Position numbers and translations under genes: made by a program. From NCBI RefSeq assembly GCF_002159835.1, contig NZ_NFJL01000019.1, forward strand, positions 1-64,000: 64,000 nucleotides of DNA. The letters run 5' to 3'. Under the pieces are notes generated by a model, which was not told the origin of the DNA, did no database searches, and saw only the letters and a list, made by a program, of their open reading frames with translations. The DNA comes from Blautia sp. An249. GTDB taxonomy: Bacteria > Bacillota > Clostridia > Lachnospirales > Lachnospiraceae. Shown here piece after piece: positions 21,125 to 41,100 of this stretch (within the stretch, counting starts at the first letter, position 1; each line of letters begins with the position of its first letter).

Positions 21125-21158
21125 TTCACCACCTTCCAATCATTTGATTTTTATCTAC

Positions 21159-21230
21159 TAGGACATCTGGGAATCGAACCCAGGGCATCTTGACAAAAAG
21201 TCAAGTGCTCTACCACTGAGCTAAAGTCCT
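21159..21230 (-). tRNA. Phage-encoded tRNA-Lys (UUU)-like
   Basis: A full cloverleaf can be drawn on the minus strand: acceptor AGGACTT/ATGTCCT with one T-T mismatch, D arm GCTC/GAGC, anticodon stem CTTGA/TCAAG with loop CTTTTTG (anticodon TTT), five-base variable loop, T arm CTGGG/CCCAG with TTCGATT. No CCA is encoded. Position 37 is U rather than the usual A, and the acceptor mismatch suggests a diverged phage tRNA. It directly follows the hicAB terminator. Confidence 0.82.
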
Positions 21231-21263
21231 AAAAGAAAGGCATCCCGAAGGATGCTCTTTCTA
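21231..21263 (-). terminator. Terminator after hicAB
   Basis: On the minus strand AGAAAGAGCATCC, TTCG loop, GGATGCCTTTCT then TTTT. A strong stem with a UUCG tetraloop, 20 bp past the hicB stop. Its T tail abuts the 5' end of the tRNA, so the tRNA needs read-through or its own promoter. Confidence 0.8.
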
Positions 21264-30930: not shown

Positions 30931-31113
30931 TTAGCTAAGGAAGTATTCGATAGATACTCCGAAGTAGTCAGCTACCTTTTTGAGTTTCTCAATCGACGGA
31001 GAGCATTTATACCAGCTACGGATTGTCCCGTTCCCAAAAGACAGTTTTTTCTCAAGGGATGTAATAGAAATACCGTGCTTTTTTGCAAGCTCTTCGATTT
31101 TTTTTAAAATCAT
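30931..31113 (-). CDS. Cro-like XRE regulator (60 aa)
   Basis: 60 aa, ATG after AAAGGAGGCAACT. A single helix-turn-helix: LAKKHGISITSLEKKLSFGNGTIRSWYKCSPSIEKLKKVADYFGVSIEYFL. It is very similar in its recognition helix to the plus-strand repressor at 31780 (ELGFGRGSIGKLR...LQRIADYFGVTVEYL), so both may bind related operators. Being first gene of the lytic arm, it is the natural Cro. Confidence 0.85.
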   Translation of the reverse strand: MILKKIEELAKKHGISITSLEKKLSFGNGTIRSWYKCSPSIEKLKKVADYFGVSIEYFLS

Positions 31114-31147
31114 AGTTGCCTCCTTTCTTTGAAATATGTAGGCTACA

Positions 31148-31176
31148 TTGAAAATTTTCTATCCTTATGTTATGAT
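31148..31176 (+). promoter_or_regulatory. Sigma-A promoter for the non-coding RNA
   Basis: TTGAAA at 31148-31153, 17-bp spacer, TATGAT at 31171-31176. It points rightward, away from the cro-like gene, and no start codon with a ribosome site follows. Just upstream lies TGTAGGCTACA (31136-31146), a short palindrome that could be an operator. Confidence 0.75.
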
Positions 31177-31182
31177 TCTTCT

Positions 31183-31562
31183 ATGCCATAAAGGCAGGGA
31201 AGGAGCGTGGTCACATTGACCAAACTTTTGACTTTGCCTGTTCCCTTAATATGAGGTCGCCCCTCGTGGCACCAAGGCACGTAAAACTGGGTTAAGGTAG
31301 ATTACTGATATGGCGTTACTGTGGCATGCACCACGAAAAAATGCTGGGCGATATTCCCGTAAAATATCTCACCATATCAAGTGCTCCTCATAATGCGTCA
31401 GCGATTAGGCATGTTGCAGAACCAAAACTGCGAAAGTGACAAAGTACTTCATAGAAGCACTTAGTTGCGTTAGGTGTGGCGAAAGCCTGCAAAGTACATA
31501 GGGTAAAAAAATTTGGGTAGAAGCCGATGGAGACGCAACCTCTATCGGCTTTCTACTTTTTC
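31183..31562 (+). ncRNA. Structured non-coding RNA of about 380 nt, bounded by promoter and terminator
   Basis: The segment has a consensus promoter at its left, a strong terminator at its right, and no frame longer than about 27 codons or with a good ribosome site. It shows many local hairpins: GGTCA-cat-TGACC, AGGGAA with TTCCCT, GTGG-CATG-CACCAC, GATATT-cccgtaa-AATATC nested within ATATGG...CCATAT, GCAG-aaccaaaa-CTGC, and GGC-GAAA-GCC with a GNRA loop. It sits between the divergent cro-like and repressor genes. No known RNA family was recognised; large phage RNAs such as ROOL or GOLLD are possible comparisons. Confidence 0.7.
31517..31561 (+). terminator. Rho-independent terminator of the non-coding RNA
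   Basis: GTAGAAGCCGAT, a 14-nt loop region, ATCGGCTTTCTAC with one bulge, then TTTTT. A long strong stem and T tail on the plus strand, ending 44 bp before the repressor promoter. It separates the RNA from the repressor operon. Confidence 0.9.
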
Positions 31563-31582
31563 AATGAAGCTTACACATAAAA

Positions 31583-31763
31583 GTCGAAAATATTCTATTT
31601 GTCATTGACTTTGTATAGAAAATATTCTATAATCAGAATAACCACAAACGACGTAGAATTTTTTATATACATCCATCAGTACGTAGAACGTTTTCTACTT
31701 CATGTTTGTATTATAACGATTATTTTCTACGTTGTCAACTCTTTTGTAGATTTTTTTCTACAC
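31583..31763. promoter_or_regulatory. Cluster of GTAGAA-N4-TTCTAC operators
   Basis: Related palindromes: TATAGAAAATATTCTATA (31614-31631), GTAGAACGTTTTCTAC (31683-31698) and GTAGATTTTTTTCTAC (31746-31761), plus half sites at 31653 (GTAGAA), 31590 (TATTCTAT) and 31725 (TTCTAC). The spacing suggests cooperative binding of the repressor and the cro-like protein. Such a multi-site array is the phage switch. Confidence 0.8.
31605..31633 (+). promoter_or_regulatory. Repressor-operon sigma-A promoter
   Basis: TTGACT at 31605-31610, 17-bp spacer, TATAAT at 31628-31633. The palindrome TATAGAAAATATTCTATA (31614-31631) covers the spacer and most of the -10 box, so repressor binding here would shut its own synthesis. 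The leader to the repressor ATG is about 140 nt and holds further operators. Confidence 0.88.
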
Positions 31764-31779
31764 CCAGAAAGGATTGATT

Positions 31780-32196
31780 ATGACGACGTATGACGTAATT
31801 GCAGAACTTTGCAAAGAGCGCAATCTTGCTATCACAGCACTTGAGCGCGAACTCGGCTTTGGTCGAGGATCTATTGGTAAATTAAGAACGGGAAGCACAA
31901 CACTCGAACGGCTTCAAAGAATAGCCGATTACTTCGGAGTTACTGTGGAATATCTTTCAACTGGAAAAGAAGAAAATAAAAAAGAAACCCAACTCAAGCC
32001 TAAAGACGAAAAGGACATAAAAGAGATTCTTGCCAGCACCGAACAATTACTCAAACAGGATGGACTCATGTTCGACGGCGATCCAGCATCGCCTGAAGCT
32101 ATCGAATCCATTCTGTCAGCTATGCAAATCGGCATGGAGATGGCAAAGAAAAAGAATAAGGAGAAATACACTCCAAAAAAGTATAAAAAGGATTGA
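31780..32196 (+). CDS. XRE-family phage repressor
   Basis: About 138 aa from ATG 31780, following AAAGGATTGATT. Residues 1-60 are a helix-turn-helix (VIAELCKERNLAITALERELGFGRGSIGKLRTGSTTLERLQRIADYFGVTVEYL). The C-terminal half is a charged, helical region (DEKDIKEILASTEQLLKQ, ESILSAMQIGMEMAKKKNK) and has no LexA-type peptidase, so induction probably depends on the neighbouring ImmA/IrrE protease. It is first in the plus-strand operon and has operators at its promoter. Confidence 0.88.
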   Translation: MTTYDVIAELCKERNLAITALERELGFGRGSIGKLRTGSTTLERLQRIADYFGVTVEYLSTGKEENKKETQLKPKDEKDIKEILASTEQLLKQDGLMFDGDPASPEAIESILSAMQIGMEMAKKKNKEKYTPKKYKKD

Positions 32197-32197
32197 T

Positions 32198-32632
32198 ATG
32201 ATGAAAATTAAAAGGCTGGCGGATTCTCTGGTCGGGAAGTACAATACACGGAATCCCTTTGAGATTATCAGCAGTCTCAATGTTATAGTTGTCTTTTATC
32301 CTCTGCATGGGGTAAAAGGATTTTATCAGTACTTTCAGCGTAACAATATTATCTATATTGATGAAACATTATCCAGCAATGAAAAACTGTTCGTCTGTGC
32401 TCACGAACTCGGACATATGCTGTTACATAAAAAGGCGAATGTAATTTTTATGGACTCGAGGACACAACTCAATACAACGAAATATGAGATTGAAGCCGAT
32501 CGCTTTGCAATGGATTTATTGCTATCCGATGCAGACATAGAGAAGCATCTTGACTTCACTACCGCACAGTTTTCGCGATTGTTCGGATATAGTAAAAAGC
32601 TAGTGGAATTGCGCCTGAAAGATTTTGATTAA
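32198..32632 (+). CDS. ImmA/IrrE-type metallopeptidase
   Basis: 144 aa; ATG 32198 lies one base past the repressor stop, with AAGGA upstream. The zinc motif HELGHMLLH is at residues 69-77, preceded by IYIDETLSSNEKLFVCA and followed by KYEIEADRFAMDLLL, where the third ligand Glu lies. In ICEBs1 and several phages ImmA cleaves the repressor after DNA damage. The tight coupling to the repressor gene supports the same relation here. Confidence 0.92.
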   Translation: MMKIKRLADSLVGKYNTRNPFEIISSLNVIVVFYPLHGVKGFYQYFQRNNIIYIDETLSSNEKLFVCAHELGHMLLHKKANVIFMDSRTQLNTTKYEIEADRFAMDLLLSDADIEKHLDFTTAQFSRLFGYSKKLVELRLKDFD

Positions 32633-35094: not shown

Positions 35095-35222
35095 TAAGTG
35101 TAATCCGAAGATATACACCGCTATTCAAGTATATTGTATCATCTTCGGAGCAGCCATACAATCCAGAACATTTGTACTGGCTGTTATTTTTGTATTTAAA
35201 ATTAAGAAAAGGAGATGATTTT

Positions 35223-36173
35223 ATGCCAACCGCAAAGAAATTACCAAGTGGCTCATGGAGGTGCCAGGTGTATAGCCATACCGAGGAGATTATTCAGCCG
35301 GATGGAAGAATTAAAAAGAAAAGAATTTATAAGTCTTTCACATCAGATATTCCGGGCCCCAAAGGCAAAAGAATAGCGGAACAAATGGCCACTGAATATG
35401 CTGCGAACAAGGAAATTTACGGACGCGGAACTGACATAAGCCTGGGCGAAGCCGTTGACCAGTACATACAGAACCGGGAAGCCGTTTTGTCGCCCCGTAC
35501 GATTGTCGATTATAAGCGCATCCGCAAAAACGCTCTGCTCCCACTATCTGACATTAAAATCAGCCGGCTTACGCAGGCGGATGTACAAAAGAGTGTAAAT
35601 CTGTATGCACAGAATCACAGTCCAAAAACTGTGCGTAATATGCATGGGCTTATATCTGCTGTATTACGCCAATATCGCCCGGATTTCACCCTGAATACCT
35701 CTCTGCCTAAAAAAGTACGCCCGAACATCTATGTGCCGTCAGATGAGGAAATACAGCGTCTCATAGCATATGTCAGTGGCAGCGTAATGGAACTTCCTAT
35801 TCTCCTGGCGGCTTTTGGCCCGATGCGCCGGGGTGAAATCAGCGCACTTGATTCCGGCGATATTACCGGGAATGTTGTCCATGTATGTAAGAACATGGTT
35901 ATGGACCAGAATAATGTCTGGATTATAAAGCAGCCAAAAAGCTATGCCGGAGACCGCTACATACATTACCCGGACTTTGTAGCCGCTAAATGGCAGGGCA
36001 TTACCGGACGCATTACTCCCCTTGCTCCTAACGTCATCACTGACAGATTTAACCGGATATTAAAGTCTGCCGGCCTCCCTCACTTCCGATTCCATGACCT
36101 GCGCCACCCTTATGTCAAGTCCACGACAAAAAAATATTTATTTTTTCTTGTCCCCACAATCCAGCTTTCTTGA
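35223..36173 (+). pseudogene. int: Tyrosine integrase, truncated by insertion
   Basis: ATG 35223 after AGGAGATGATTTT. An arm-binding AP2-like start (LPSGSWRCQVYSHTEE), core-binding domain (SLGEAVDQYIQNREAVLSPRTIVDYKRI) and catalytic domain with Arg in FGPMRRGEISAL, then FRFHDLRH. After the HDLRH codons (ending 36107) the sequence changes to PYVKSTTKKYLFFL and stops at 36173; the second His and Tyr nucleophile region are absent. The break coincides with the start of the serine-recombinase element, so the gene was split by it. Confidence 0.88.
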
Positions 36174-36296
36174 TAGGAATTTTGCCGCCTCCCGTTTCTG
36201 TTCGGCGGCAAAAAACGCATGAAGTCGCTCCTTTTCTTCCGGCAGCATACACCCAAAAGTTGTGCCGCCTTTTCTGCAATAAAACGCAATCCGCAT
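36138..36296 (-). CDS. Small protein at element end (52 aa)
   Basis: ATG 36296 (MRIAFYCRKGGTTFGCMLPEEK) following GAGGGAAAGGGATTGATT; ends 36138, close to the element boundary. It has three Cys (7, 16, 47) and a helical AEQKREAAKFLSRKLD part. It directly follows the first serine recombinase gene in the same direction and may be a recombination accessory factor. No family recognised. Confidence 0.55.
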   Translation of the reverse strand: MRIAFYCRKGGTTFGCMLPEEKERLHAFFAAEQKREAAKFLSRKLDCGDKKK

Positions 36297-36312
36297 AATC
36301 AATCCCTTTCCC

Positions 36313-37845
36313 TCATTTGTGAGTTGTCAAGCTGTCCCTTATCTTAAAGGCAATATCTACCCGTTTATCAGGATAAACATAAATCTTATCAATCAGAAGA
36401 TCAACTAATTCCGACGTCAGCCCATCGCTTTCCGTCAGCATCCGGGAAATATCCATCTGCTGGCGCTGGTGCTGCCGTTCTTCCTGTTTGGCTTCAAGAC
36501 GGGCCATGACAACCGCTTTGGTATTCTGTACTTCCAACAGTTTTTCACTGATCTGCTCTTTTTGATCCTTGTATTCCGGGAGCGGAATCCTGCCGGAAAC
36601 AAGAGCTTCATACAGTTTCCGCTTTTCTTCCTGCAGTTCAAAAATCTGTCGGTCAAAGTCAGCCTGGCGTATAGCAACGGTATCTATCTTACGGAGATCC
36701 TCTAAGCTGTCAATACCGAAAGCTACCTGAAACTGTTTGCATAGCAATTCATATACAAGCTGATTCAGTTCTTTTTCCCGGATATGAATGTTATAGCAGT
36801 CAAGTGAAGGAATCGTGCTGGAAAAGCGACACCGGTAAGATGTCCCATTTGCCAGGTGCAGGGCATGTTTACAGCATCCGCAGATAACCTTCCCACGCAG
36901 GAGATAGTCGTGTTTTTTCCTATTTGGAATCTTAAAACGCTGAATAGAGGCATTGGCTTTTGAAAAGATTTCCTCATTCACCAGCGGTATATGATGGTCC
37001 GGTATTTTGATCCAGTCGCTTTCCGCTTTGCTCCGCATCTTGTGGCCGCCGATTTCTGTAACCTCTCTTTTGCCAATCACATAAGTGCCCATATATCGTT
37101 CGTCAGCAAGAATCCGAAGCACCGTAGAATTGCACCACATTCCGTGAGTTCTTGAAACATCGTGTGTCTTAATCCCTTTTCGGGCCTTATGCTCTCCGGG
37201 TGTGGGAATCTGCTGACGGGAAAGTTCCCGCGCAATATCGGTTGCGTTCATGCCATTTACGGCATACTCAAAAATTTTCTGTACTACTTCGGAAGTCTCC
37301 GGGTCCGGCACCATCCGTCCGTTTTCCCCTTTGCGATAACCGTAAGGGCAAATTTTACTTTGGTATTCGCCCCGCTGGAACTTCAGGTATTTGGCCGTTT
37401 TGGTCTTTACCGACATATCACGGCTATAATACTCACTGATTAAATACTTGAAGGCGACTTCCATACCTCCGGTATCACCTTTTAACTTTTGGGTGTCAAA
37501 ATCATCATTGACAGAGATAAAGCGGGTATGAAACAGCGGAAATACCCGCTCGATAAAATAGCCGGTTTCCAAACTGTTGCGGCCAAACCGAGAAAAATCT
37601 TTTACCATGATACAGTCAATCCGATTGGCCCGTACCAGGTCAAGTAATTCCTGCACCGCAGGGCGCTCGAAGTTTGCCCCGCTGTACCCGTTATCTACAA
37701 ATTCCGTAAGTTCCGCATTAGCATATTCCGGCAGTTCAGAGGCATATTCCCGAAGGATGTTTCTCTGGCTGGAAATACTCATACTGTCTGTTTTTGCGTC
37801 CTCCAAAGAGAGACGGATGTAAAGAGCAATCCTGTACTTCTTCAT
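36313..37845 (-). CDS. Large serine recombinase 1
   Basis: 510 aa. The catalytic Ser13 is in YIRLS; QRNILREYA, VDNGYSGANFERPAVQEL, VKDFSRFGRNSLETGYFIE and FISVNDDFDT follow in order as in the resolvase domain. Then the recombinase domain (MNATDIARELSRQQIPTP, TYVIGKREV) and zinc ribbon CGCC...C, then coiled coil and C-terminal tail. The start overlaps the stop of the next recombinase gene (ATGA). Serine recombinases of this type catalyse att site integration/excision. Confidence 0.95.
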   Translation of the reverse strand: MKKYRIALYIRLSLEDAKTDSMSISSQRNILREYASELPEYANAELTEFVDNGYSGANFERPAVQELLDLVRANRIDCIMVKDFSRFGRNSLETGYFIERVFPLFHTRFISVNDDFDTQKLKGDTGGMEVAFKYLISEYYSRDMSVKTKTAKYLKFQRGEYQSKICPYGYRKGENGRMVPDPETSEVVQKIFEYAVNGMNATDIARELSRQQIPTPGEHKARKGIKTHDVSRTHGMWCNSTVLRILADERYMGTYVIGKREVTEIGGHKMRSKAESDWIKIPDHHIPLVNEEIFSKANASIQRFKIPNRKKHDYLLRGKVICGCCKHALHLANGTSYRCRFSSTIPSLDCYNIHIREKELNQLVYELLCKQFQVAFGIDSLEDLRKIDTVAIRQADFDRQIFELQEEKRKLYEALVSGRIPLPEYKDQKEQISEKLLEVQNTKAVVMARLEAKQEERQHQRQQMDISRMLTESDGLTSELVDLLIDKIYVYPDKRVDIAFKIRDSLTTHK

Positions 37846-39479
37846 TCTGCCTCCGCCTCCTTAAACGCCTCAAATTCTGCGCGGAACGTGAATTTTACAT
37901 CTACCTGTTTATCCGGGTAGACTGTGATCCGCTCAATCAACCGCTCAATGAGGGCGGCAGTCAGGACGCCTCCGCTCAAAAGTTCCTGTTCGTCTTTTTC
38001 CAGATCTTTGCACTTTTCAGCCTGCTTCTGGCGGACATCAGCCTGCTTTTCGTAAAAAGCAAGCTCCTTTTGCGCTGCCTGTATCTGCTTTTCATAGGTC
38101 GCTTTCAAGTCGAAGTATTCTTCACTGTCAATCGCACCGTTCATCAGATTTTCATAAAGAGTCTGCAAAAGCTCACGGCTTTGATTAAACTGCAGCTTTG
38201 CCCGGTTGACTTTCTCACGGGAAGCAGCTTCTTTTTCGTGCTTTTGCATGTTGTCTTTCAGAAGCAGCGCGTAATCCCCCAGGACGGCGGCAAGTTCCCT
38301 TTTAAGAATATCCAGTATCGTTGCGATCAGCTCGGTTTCGCTGATGGAAACGCCAGTGCATTTATCTTTATGTACCCTGGTAGGGGTCAGGCAGTGGAAG
38401 CGATATGAACCATTGCATTGTTGGCGCTGCCGATGCAGGCTTCTCCCGCAGTCTCCACAGAAGATACGCCCCTTAAAAATATTGGGCGTGTATGGGATAA
38501 CCGGGTGCTTCTTGCTTTCCTCGGCCACTTCTGCCCGGTACTTCTGAACGGCATCGAAAATCTCTTTGGAAACGATAGGCTCATGGGTTCCAGTAACGAC
38601 AATCAGGTTTTCCTCGCCTGCGGGCACCTGCCGGTGAAGGACCGTTTTTGTTCGCCCTTGCACCATGTCGCCGGTATATTTATCCTCCTTCAAAATCTTG
38701 GCAACTGTCCAGGTCTGCCAGTAGCCGCGCCCTGCTAACGCCTGATGGGTGATCTCCCCGGTTTGCATCTTATACATTCCGGGAGAAGGGTAGTTTCCTT
38801 CATTGAGCAGAAGCACAATCCGGTTGAGGGGGACTTTTTCATAAGCCCACTGGAAAATCTGGCGTACCACAGGAGCCGCCACCGGATCAATAATCAATTT
38901 GTGGCAGTCATCAGGGTCTTTCATATATCCAAATGGCGCCCTGCCACCCACATACTTGCCCTCTTTCATATCTTGACGGGCCTGGGCCTTTATCTTACGT
39001 CCTATGTCCAGAGCATAGGCTTCGTTAATCATATTTTTCAGCGGAAGGATAATACCGCCGTGGAGATTATCAGGATTTTCAGAATCAAATTGATCCGTAA
39101 CGCTGATGAACCGGACATTATGGGAAGGGAAATACCGCTCAATGTAATATCCCGTGTCAATGGCATTGCGTCCCAGGCGTGAAAGGTCTTTGACAATCAC
39201 ACAGCCTACTTTGCCGGATTCAATATCCGAAAGCATCCGTTGGAAGCCGTCACGGTTAAAATTCGTTCCTGTTGCTCCATTGTCGATATAAATGTCATAA
39301 AGACGCAGTTCAGGTTTTCCCAATAGGAATTTTTCGAGAACCAGCTTTTGCGTTTCGATAGAATTTCCACGTTTATTGTTATCCTCCACAGACAGCCGGA
39401 TATACAGCGCCGTGCTGATAAACGGGGAAGCAGGCATGGCAGCCTGCGCCATAGTATGTTTCCTGCTCTTTCTCGCCAT
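37842..39479 (-). CDS. Large serine recombinase 2
   Basis: 545 aa. Catalytic Ser30 in ALYIRLS; IDNGATGTNFNRDGF, VKDLSRLGRNAIDTGYYIE, RFISVTDQFDS. Then MKEGKYVGGRAPFGY and GYWQTWTVAKILKEDKYTG of the recombinase domain, zinc ribbon CGDCGRSL...C, coiled coil, and a C-terminal HEAEAEAE-like acidic end. About as long as TnpX/TndX. It forms a tight operon with recombinases 1 and 3. Confidence 0.95.
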   Translation of the reverse strand: MARKSRKHTMAQAAMPASPFISTALYIRLSVEDNNKRGNSIETQKLVLEKFLLGKPELRLYDIYIDNGATGTNFNRDGFQRMLSDIESGKVGCVIVKDLSRLGRNAIDTGYYIERYFPSHNVRFISVTDQFDSENPDNLHGGIILPLKNMINEAYALDIGRKIKAQARQDMKEGKYVGGRAPFGYMKDPDDCHKLIIDPVAAPVVRQIFQWAYEKVPLNRIVLLLNEGNYPSPGMYKMQTGEITHQALAGRGYWQTWTVAKILKEDKYTGDMVQGRTKTVLHRQVPAGEENLIVVTGTHEPIVSKEIFDAVQKYRAEVAEESKKHPVIPYTPNIFKGRIFCGDCGRSLHRQRQQCNGSYRFHCLTPTRVHKDKCTGVSISETELIATILDILKRELAAVLGDYALLLKDNMQKHEKEAASREKVNRAKLQFNQSRELLQTLYENLMNGAIDSEEYFDLKATYEKQIQAAQKELAFYEKQADVRQKQAEKCKDLEKDEQELLSGGVLTAALIERLIERITVYPDKQVDVKFTFRAEFEAFKEAEAE

Positions 39480-39480
39480 T

Positions 39481-41100
39481 TCAGACCACCATCCTTTCCT
39501 GTACCGGCGTAATCAGGGCGAGGGCTTTTTCATATTCGTCCTGATAATTAAATTGAATCTGCAATTCGTCTTTCCCCAGCACTGTAATCACCTGCACAAG
39601 TTGGATCACCGCCTTGCGGTCCAGTTCTTCCAGATCGGAAAAACGCCTGAAATTCTCAATCCAGCGATTCCGCTCACTCCGGTTTTCCATTACATCGGTC
39701 CGTTTTTCCTTAAGGGCAGCAACCGCCTGTTCCAGTTGGGTGATACGGGCGCTGTAACTGCTTTTGTTATAAAGGAACTCCGACTTGTCCAGAAAGCCGT
39801 TTACCATGCTCTCATACAGTTTCATCTTATATTGACGAATCTGCTCCAACTGCTGCTCATTCTGGGCGATCTGCCGCGAATACTCCTTGATAAGTTCACG
39901 GTTGATACGGCTCTGGTCTATGCCGGATAAGATTTCATCCAGAGAGACTACATTGGCAATAAACCCTTTCAGGCTGTCCCGCACGCACTCCATCAGCTCA
40001 TGTTCCTTTACCATGACCGGATGGGCGCAGCCGTTCTTCTTTCCGGTGGGACAATAGTAATAGTGATATTCTTTGTCTTTGTAGCGGTTCGTTTTGCGTA
40101 CCATCCGGCTGCCGCAGCAACCGCAGACCAGTATGCCGGAAAACAGATAGACTTTATCTTTTTGGGGAGATGTACGGGTGTCCAGGTTGCGAATCCTTTG
40201 CACCAGGTCAAAATCGTTCCGATCAACAATGGCTTCGTGAGCATTTTCCACGCGAACCCACTCGGAGGAAGGGCGGCTCTCCATTTCTTTCAGTTTGAAG
40301 TGCTGGGAACCCTTTCGGCCCTGGACCAGCGTACCGGTATAGGTTTCATCCTGCAAGATCCGGGTGACAGTATTTGCCGACCACCGGCAATCCTTCCGGT
40401 CTGTATAGCCTTTCTTGGCATGGGGAAGGCCATAATACTTTTTATATGCCAAAGGAGAGAGCGTACCCAGCCGGTTCAGCTCATTCGCGATGGCGTAGGG
40501 GCTGAATCCTTCCAGGCGCATCCTGAAAATGCTCCGCACCACCTGGGCAGCATATTCGTCTACTACAAGAAGATTATGGTTATCTTCGGATTTACGATAG
40601 CCGTAAACCGGGAAAGCTCCAACGAAATCCCCATTCTTACGCTTAGTTTCCAGGGAACTTCTCGTCTTAATGGAAATATCCCGTGCATAGGCTTCATTCA
40701 TAATGTTCTTTACTGATACAGTCAGGTCATCGCCTGCGCTCTCATTGAGAGTATCGATATTGTCATTGATGGCAATAAACCTCACGCCATAGGCCGGAAA
40801 GACACGGCGCATATAGCGGCCAGTCTCAATATACTCACGGCCAAGACGGGAAAGGTCTTTGACGATGACACAGTTAATCTTTCCCTCCATGATGTCATCC
40901 ATCATTTCTTTAAAAGCCGGACGGTCAAAGATAACCCCGCTGTACCCATCGTCTACCTTTTCGGAAACCAGCTCGATTTCCGGGTGACGGCTCACGAAAT
41001 CTTCGATCAGCTTTCGTTGATTGCCGACACTGTTGCTTTCATTTGATTTGTCATCCGTATAAGATAAGCGGATATATTTGGCAGCTTTATAAACCTGCAT
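39481..41100 (-). CDS. Large serine recombinase 3
   Basis: 539 aa, ATG after GAAAGGAGTGTTTTTCT. Catalytic Ser13 in KYIRLS; NSVGNQRKLIEDF, VDDGYSGVIFDRPAF, VKDLSRLGREYIETG, RFIAINDNIDT. Then FVGAFPVYGYRKS and CRWSANTVTRILQDETYTG, zinc ribbon CGCCGSRM and a coiled coil to the end. First of the three genes in transcription. The trio differs clearly in sequence and so is not a recent duplication. Confidence 0.95.
   Translation of the reverse strand: MQVYKAAKYIRLSYTDDKSNESNSVGNQRKLIEDFVSRHPEIELVSEKVDDGYSGVIFDRPAFKEMMDDIMEGKINCVIVKDLSRLGREYIETGRYMRRVFPAYGVRFIAINDNIDTLNESAGDDLTVSVKNIMNEAYARDISIKTRSSLETKRKNGDFVGAFPVYGYRKSEDNHNLLVVDEYAAQVVRSIFRMRLEGFSPYAIANELNRLGTLSPLAYKKYYGLPHAKKGYTDRKDCRWSANTVTRILQDETYTGTLVQGRKGSQHFKLKEMESRPSSEWVRVENAHEAIVDRNDFDLVQRIRNLDTRTSPQKDKVYLFSGILVCGCCGSRMVRKTNRYKDKEYHYYYCPTGKKNGCAHPVMVKEHELMECVRDSLKGFIANVVSLDEILSGIDQSRINRELIKEYSRQIAQNEQQLEQIRQYKMKLYESMVNGFLDKSEFLYNKSSYSARITQLEQAVAALKEKRTDVMENRSERNRWIENFRRFSDLEELDRKAVIQLVQVITVLGKDELQIQFNYQDEYEKALALITPVQERMVV

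Follow-up and report, generated by a model that had tools for sequence, protein, structure and literature searches.

The window analysed here, a stretch of 64,000 nucleotides from Blautia sp. An249 (contig NZ_NFJL01000019.1, positions 1 to 64,000), contains tail, tape measure, capsid, portal and terminase genes alongside a small set of regulatory genes, and on the strength of the structural and terminase genes it is read as holding a tailed-phage prophage. The part of the window that resembles a lysogeny switch is made up of the following features, in order along the forward strand:

30931 to 31113, minus strand: cro-like HTH gene, divergent from the RNA (Pfam HTH_26/HTH_3)
31148 to 31176, plus strand: sigma-70-type promoter of the RNA, TTGAAA-17-TATGAT, with TG before the -10 box, matching the consensus at 10 of 12 positions
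31183 to 31562, plus strand: predicted FuFi-1 RNA transcript of about 380 nt (247 to 454 nt in the homologues)
31517 to 31561, plus strand: intrinsic terminator (hairpin 31520 to 31552, then a T run), its loop shared with a kissing interaction described below
31605 to 31633, plus strand: candidate repressor promoter, TTGACT-17-TATAAT, after the RNA terminator
31710 to 31738, minus strand: candidate lytic promoter, TTGACA-17-TATAAT, matching the consensus at 12 of 12 positions
31780 to 32196, plus strand: repressor-like HTH protein (Pfam)
32198 to 32632, plus strand: ImmA/IrrE-type metallopeptidase (Pfam Peptidase_M78)

An earlier note on this DNA had described a discrete, apparently non-coding RNA gene running from promoter to terminator between the cro-like and repressor-like genes and directed at the repressor. 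This description stands: the promoter and terminator can be seen in the sequence, the ORF list has no frame of at least 50 aa between 31183 and 31560, and the transcript, itself predicted, ends before the candidate repressor promoter. Signals of this kind are frequent in the region, with 11 promoter-like sites between 30.5 and 32.5 kb against 5.1 in shuffled sequences and three terminator-like sites against 1.2. The folding energy of the window RNA (-116.5 kcal/mol, z -2.86, one of 100 shuffles equally stable) is modest when taken alone. A transcript started at the candidate lytic promoter (31738 to 31710) would traverse the RNA gene in antisense.

Two further observations were made in the vicinity of the prophage. 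A tRNA-Lys (UUU) gene (21158 to 21231, minus strand) adjoins the prophage terminase gene; it is the only tRNA that ARAGORN reports in the window, and the same program finds no tmRNA there. Positions 35172 to 41100 hold an integrase ORF, for which Pfam recognises only an N-terminal SAM-like domain, followed by three large serine recombinase-like ORFs, one of which (36313 to 37845, the one of the three that was tested) matches Resolvase/Recombinase in Pfam, and this stretch may be a second element inserted at the prophage end.

Family membership and distribution

The earlier note had assigned the RNA to no known class and had considered a new family, a claim refuted by the Infernal search of Rfam that the note itself had proposed. 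Positions 31394 to 31554 match the FuFi-1 model, RF02986, at 138.2 bits against a gathering cut-off of 59.6 (E 3.4e-30, Rfam 15), and the window RNA is thus an additional member of a catalogued family. In the same database, which includes models for ROOL, GOLLD, HEARO and OLE, none of these four matched positions 31100 to 31620 at E values up to 5; the sole other match at that level, to the plasmid ctRNA model RF00236, was rejected at 21.5 bits against a cut-off of 45.

The FuFi-1 motif reportedly stems from a 2017 survey of 224 candidate structured RNAs, and its name presumably reflects occurrence in Firmicutes and Fusobacteria; we know of no function for the family. Our literature search found no paper naming FuFi-1 or RF02986, the whole-word matches to "FuFi" being unrelated by their titles. 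Rfam types the family as "Gene; sRNA", and the window copy has its promoter (31148 to 31176) and terminator (31517 to 31561) in the sequence.

FuFi-1 is rare. Matches over the cut-off were obtained in five of 250 genomes of the same taxonomic family, three of 392 of the order, one of 60 of the genus and two of 398 of the phylum, and at E 0.001 or better in six, seven, one and two genomes of the family, order, genus and phylum sets, respectively, each tally including the window's own genome. That this genome is the sole carrier among 60 of its genus is to be expected of a mobile element. In Bacillus subtilis, one of the 14 control genomes, a FuFi-1 match under the cut-off appeared in two scans and was absent from three others. 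When phage and plasmid records were searched, the full element gave no match at E 1e-5; with the core alone as query at E 1, four 31-nt matches in Enterococcus phages were returned (E 0.5), and none in plasmids.

Homologous loci and the conserved fold

Twenty-three distinct loci, the window included, were assembled from Rfam matches and from pattern searches in viral contigs and genomes; in all of them a conserved 5' hairpin domain precedes the core, and their pairwise identities range from 46 to 77%. Twelve come from a viral-contig collection, which favours phage contexts, and 11 from genomes; among the latter, seven have a repressor-like ORF, two lie on contigs that end early and two are without phage neighbours. 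For many of the loci the search pattern itself fixed parts of the 5' hairpin, so that invariance there is partly built in. The domain is nevertheless present in all eight loci found by an Rfam score over the cut-off (the window, L002 to L005, L060, L061 and L113), and is therefore not merely a product of the search pattern. A 16-base hairpin pattern applied to viral contigs returned 47 stretches, at least three of which (L017, L037 and L048) hold one of the 23 RNAs, and a narrow pattern applied to genome contigs returned five, with L055, L058 and L059 judged genuine by eye.

The counts exclude loci with an Rfam score under the cut-off (L006 and L062 to L065, of which L063 may be a diverged FuFi-1 member), those judged by eye to be chance matches (L056, L057 and L068 to L070), those whose pattern match lies within apparent protein-coding sequence (L072 and L074), and the stretches of one pattern search that show no visible core, all except L079, L098, L106, L109 and L111. 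Exact copies were likewise left out: L001, L037 and L082 equal the window, L080 equals L004, L081 equals L071, L098 equals L113, L109 equals L106, and L112 equals L061. Also outside the counts are L111, where the resemblance is confined to the 5' hairpin, and L054 and L058, which have no 5' domain. In L111 (about 1719 to 1780, on a GC-rich phage contig) the same SD/UUGACCAACCUUUUGA hairpin is enclosed by another outer stem, and a FuFi-1 core was not seen there; a distant relative of the 5' domain is a possible reading. In L054 and L058 (the latter Blautia parvula), a promoter-like sequence, identified by eye, stands right before the core, and this lineage reads as a truncated or minimal form of FuFi-1.

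Structure counts were restricted to 10 of the 23 RNAs, those whose layout is close to that in the window. The elements of the predicted fold, all on the plus strand, are as follows:

31183 to 31187 with 31408 to 31412: pairing A.D, between strand A at the 5' end and strand D inside the core
31193 to 31238: 5' hairpin domain, GGCA...UUGACC...UGCC, outside the Rfam model, with an SD-like AAGGAG and a UUG within
31216 to 31254: 12-codon mini-ORF with SD, LTKLLTLPVPLI
31243 to 31246 with 31500 to 31503: long-range pairing E.F, CCCU with AGGG of the core (CUCCCUU versus AUAGGG)
31249 to 31393: central domain, absent from some homologues
31249 to 31256 with 31386 to 31393: closing helix of the central domain
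31272 to 31274 with 31288 to 31290: small pseudoknot of the central domain
31306 to 31315 with 31370 to 31379: further helix of the central domain
31394 to 31554: FuFi-1 core, RF02986 model positions 1 to 175 of 175, untruncated
31422 to 31426 with 31512 to 31516: pseudoknot between hairpin-loop CCAAA and UUUGG before the terminator
31464 to 31470 with 31533 to 31539: kiss of 7 bp between GUUGCGU of the core apical loop and ACGCAAC of the terminator loop
31481 to 31484: GAAA (GNRA) tetraloop, invariant in the 10 aligned RNAs

RNAalifold predicted 78 pairs for the 10 RNAs, 48 of them with two-sided changes. With the pseudoknots included, the fold comprises 96 pairs in 15 helices; 92.4% of cells pair, and 62 pairs show two-sided changes. 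These values lie far above the controls: sliding the partners by one to three columns left 37 to 45% of cells paired and 17 to 22 pairs with two-sided changes, while shuffles gave 34 ± 3 such pairs, none of 500 matching any of five measures. The structured RNA and the GNRA loop that the earlier note had read from a single sequence are borne out by this comparison. Unpaired stretches are also retained, GAAA (31481 to 31484), UGCA (31488 to 31491) and UAAA (31504 to 31507) being kept in at least 90% of the 10 RNAs. A convergent layout of predicted promoters could suggest that promoter and terminator serve only for transcriptional interference or insulation and that the RNA body is functionless; promoter and terminator alone cannot account for 62 of 96 pairs with two-sided changes, and we regard this explanation as barely credible.

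Individual pairings were examined in all 23 RNAs with a swap test, in which each segment is matched either to the partner from its own locus or to one from a different locus, and which ignores relatedness among loci; three control pairs gave z values between -0.5 and 0.4. The strongest result was obtained for the kiss between the core loop and the terminator loop (z 7.8, none of 5000 swaps; 7 of 7 pairs with two-sided changes in the 10 RNAs), followed by the pseudoknot between the hairpin loop and the tail (z 6.4, none of 5000), A.D (z 4.7, none of 5000; 2 of 5 pairs with two-sided changes) and B.C within the 5' hairpin (z 3.4, 6 of 5000), E.F being the weakest of the five (z 2.5, 33 of 5000; 1 of 4 pairs with two-sided changes). 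Since A.D and E.F join the 5' domain to the FuFi-1 core, both parts belong to one molecule. Segments A and C share GCC and B and D share GGC, so that two pairing schemes are permitted; a bistable switch between A.D with B.C and A.B with C.D was rejected as unsupported, the tight-window test on 23 loci giving z -0.1 for A.B and 1.2 for C.D. With loose windows, swaps did as well in one of 2000 for C.D and none of 2000 for A.D (19 loci), and in 37 of 2000 for B.C and 1347 of 2000 for A.B (23 loci).

The covariation thus shows, at the level of predicted structure, that the fold, including several pseudoknots, is conserved across relatives, and that the Rfam model represents about half of a molecule roughly twice its length. 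It also implies that what is under strong selection is the fold and not the sequence. As to strand, RNAalifold gave -65.9 (covariation 11.9) for the RNA strand and -46.5 (covariation 4.1) for its complement, and the single-sequence folding energy was lower on the RNA strand in 21 of 23 loci, the exceptions being L055 and L066; the count of 81 G-U against 13 A-C cells points the same way, and is biased towards that strand, as the structure was predicted on it. A sigma-70-type promoter with at least 8 of 12 consensus positions stands at the matching place upstream in 22 of the 23 loci (control 9.6%), and one with at least 9 of 12 in 14 (control 2.0%), with TGn in 18; these figures were obtained with a widened position window, a narrower first run having given 13 of 23 at 9 of 12 or better (control 2.8%). 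Judged from these patterns, the window RNA is a real and elaborate RNA gene with a predicted transcript.

The 5' domain has the consensus GGCA..AAGGAG..GGUC-loop-UUGACC..CUUUUGA..UGCC over the 23 loci, and an SD with a start codon, UUG in 19 and AUG in four, is kept in every one of them, a constancy that the search patterns partly fix in many loci. It would fit a dual-function RNA that also encodes a short peptide. No coding signature was found in the mini-ORF: over codons 2 to 8 without codon 6, 13 of 15 codon changes are non-synonymous and two synonymous, codon 6 varies freely, and the length ranges from 11 to 22 codons across loci. As the SD moreover sits within the conserved stem, a peptide-coding role appears very unlikely.

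The kiss, in which an internal loop binds the terminator loop, would also be in keeping with an attenuator, that is, with the RNA being the leader of a repressor-establishing transcript in the geometry of lambda pRE, with regulated termination where the RNA ends. The RNA is oriented like pRE, and the repressor is the next gene on the same strand in the window. In addition, over the 23 loci, complementarity between the RNA and the 150 nt that follow its terminator is higher within a locus than when those 150 nt are taken from another locus (z 3.2, 8 of 3000, against z -1.1 for the reversed control), an excess that is due to a few loci (L005, L059, L061, L076 and L078) to which the window does not belong. 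Against this, the terminator helix is strongly supported by covariation, no upstream segment covaries with either of its arms as an alternative partner (z -0.5 and -0.3, 23 loci), which gives no sign of an attenuator, and a candidate promoter for the window repressor itself follows the terminator. We consider regulated attenuation unlikely.

Just past the terminator in L005, L059, L061 and L078, a stretch of 28 to 36 nt repeats part of the RNA imperfectly and in inverted orientation; in L005 and L059 the part repeated is the 5' end with its hairpin, in L061 and L078 it lies in the core (none of 40 shuffles as good in each case). A weaker copy of 43 nt is found in L076 (none of 40), while for L017 and the window 8 and 10 of 40 shuffles, respectively, were as good. 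These copies could have arisen by template switching at the terminator hairpin, or they could serve as a target for pairing. In L004 and L073, at or just upstream of the RNA promoter, lies an inverted copy (29 to 34 nt; E 4e-8 and 2e-5, respectively) of part of the small ORF found across the RNA.

Position in the switch and proposed role

ORF lists show a regulator-like ORF downstream of the RNA and on its strand in 19 of the 23 loci. In Pfam, 18 of these ORFs hit an HTH family with E values no higher than 0.001, and 16 of the 18 exceed the Pfam cut-off, L071 and L073 scoring just under it; the ORF of L002, interrupted by the contig end, has no match. As for the remaining four loci, the contigs of L003 and L083 end early, and L055 and L060 have no recognisable phage neighbours in our reading of the ORFs; the last two read as full-length RNA genes surviving as remnants or domesticated copies. 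In 13 loci the RNA and the repressor are separated by a small regulator-type ORF of the opposite strand, and L083 has such an ORF after the RNA, followed by the contig end; out of these 14 ORFs, 11 reach the Pfam cut-off (HTH or DUF739), those of L004 and L059 fall just under it and that of L073 has no match. The other flank of the RNA gives the same picture: its first plausible gene in the ORF lists, small overlapping ORFs being ignored, is likewise on the opposite strand. From these gene orientations it follows that the RNA and the early lytic genes converge and that the RNA is directed at the repressor.

The neighbours themselves vary from phage to phage: the opposite-strand regulators belong to HTH_3, HTH_26 or DUF739, the repressors occur with or without S24, and an M78 partner of the repressor is present in the window. 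With differing regulators and repressors at a kept position, the RNA has mostly held its place as the genes beside it changed. That the same position recurs in 19 of the 23 loci speaks for some connection with the switch, where the RNA may have the role in immunity or in the lysis-lysogeny choice that the earlier note suggested.

The interpretation that we propose, and to which we would assign not quite an even chance, is that FuFi-1 RNA is a free-standing folded RNA gene in the switch of temperate phages, made in the lysogen and acting on the switch. It would be produced constitutively in the lysogen as a stable RNA and, with less certainty, would work on the lysogeny switch, its transcription opposing the early lytic transcript. 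Because that transcript crosses the RNA gene, it necessarily contains the complement of the RNA, and the folded RNA could lower early lytic expression through a bound protein or through pairing with the early lytic transcript, which would support lysogeny and immunity. That selection preserves the fold and not the sequence implies that the work is done by the folded body and not by complementarity alone. Points weighed against a role in the switch are the two loci without phage neighbours (L055 and L060) and the lineage with a core that has no 5' domain (L054 and L058). More broadly, and only as a tentative suggestion, FuFi-1 may be a regulatory component that many temperate phages have in their cI/cro switch, an RNA of 250 to 450 nt with a 5' domain locked onto the core, a kiss with its own terminator and a pRE-like promoter, whose fold would set the balance between lysis and lysogeny or immunity.

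A plain antisense RNA needs no conserved structure, and for this reason the RNA may instead act in trans on a host factor, being located here because the region is expressed in lysogens. Such a host-directed RNA is the main rival to our proposal. In its wider form, a structured RNA would act in trans on a host factor or on competing phages, as a lysogenic-conversion or defence gene whose site in the switch secures expression from the prophage. The conservation of fold but not of sequence (identities of 46 to 77%) is what such an RNA would lead one to expect; GAAA (31481 to 31484), UGCA (31488 to 31491) and UAAA (31504 to 31507) resemble contact sites, the RNA accompanies differing cro-like and repressor proteins, and two loci have no recognisable phage neighbours. 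Accessory genes, however, usually vary in location, whereas here the position and orientation in the switch recur in 19 of 23 loci, and we hold a trans-acting role to be a genuine possibility but a rather doubtful one.

Comparison with known systems

As regards the proposed switch RNA and its own family, all 175 positions of the Rfam model match 31394 to 31554 at 138 bits, but the model starts at 31394 and is thus without the 5' domain, the central domain and the pairings A.D, E.F and B.C. FuFi-1 accordingly gains a full length, a pseudoknotted fold backed by covariation and a genetic address, none of which the Rfam model shows. The window RNA resembles GOLLD (often phage-linked, as is ROOL), ROOL, OLE and other ornate RNAs in being large, knotted and non-coding; it differs from GOLLD, ROOL and OLE in matching none of their models in Rfam, in being shorter and in its location in a lysogeny switch.

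The lambda promoter pRE lies beyond cro and directs transcription antisense through cro into the repressor gene. The promoter of the RNA is likewise placed beyond cro and directed at the repressor gene, an opposite-strand regulator ORF lying between in 13 loci, with the difference that the terminator of the RNA stops the transcript short of both the repressor and that regulator. If its role there is true, a large folded RNA would add a new type of component to a textbook circuit, the cI/cro switch. The closest parallels in position and strand are lambda OOP, P22 sar and P1/P7 c4, small antisense RNAs that act by pairing or processing and are, like the window RNA, transcribed within the immunity region against the direction of the early lytic genes. 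In the window and its homologues, too, the RNA is encoded opposite the early lytic genes in the immunity region; the likeness is one of position and strand, and what sets the FuFi-1 RNA apart from OOP, sar and c4 is its length of 250 to 450 nt and its conserved knotted fold.
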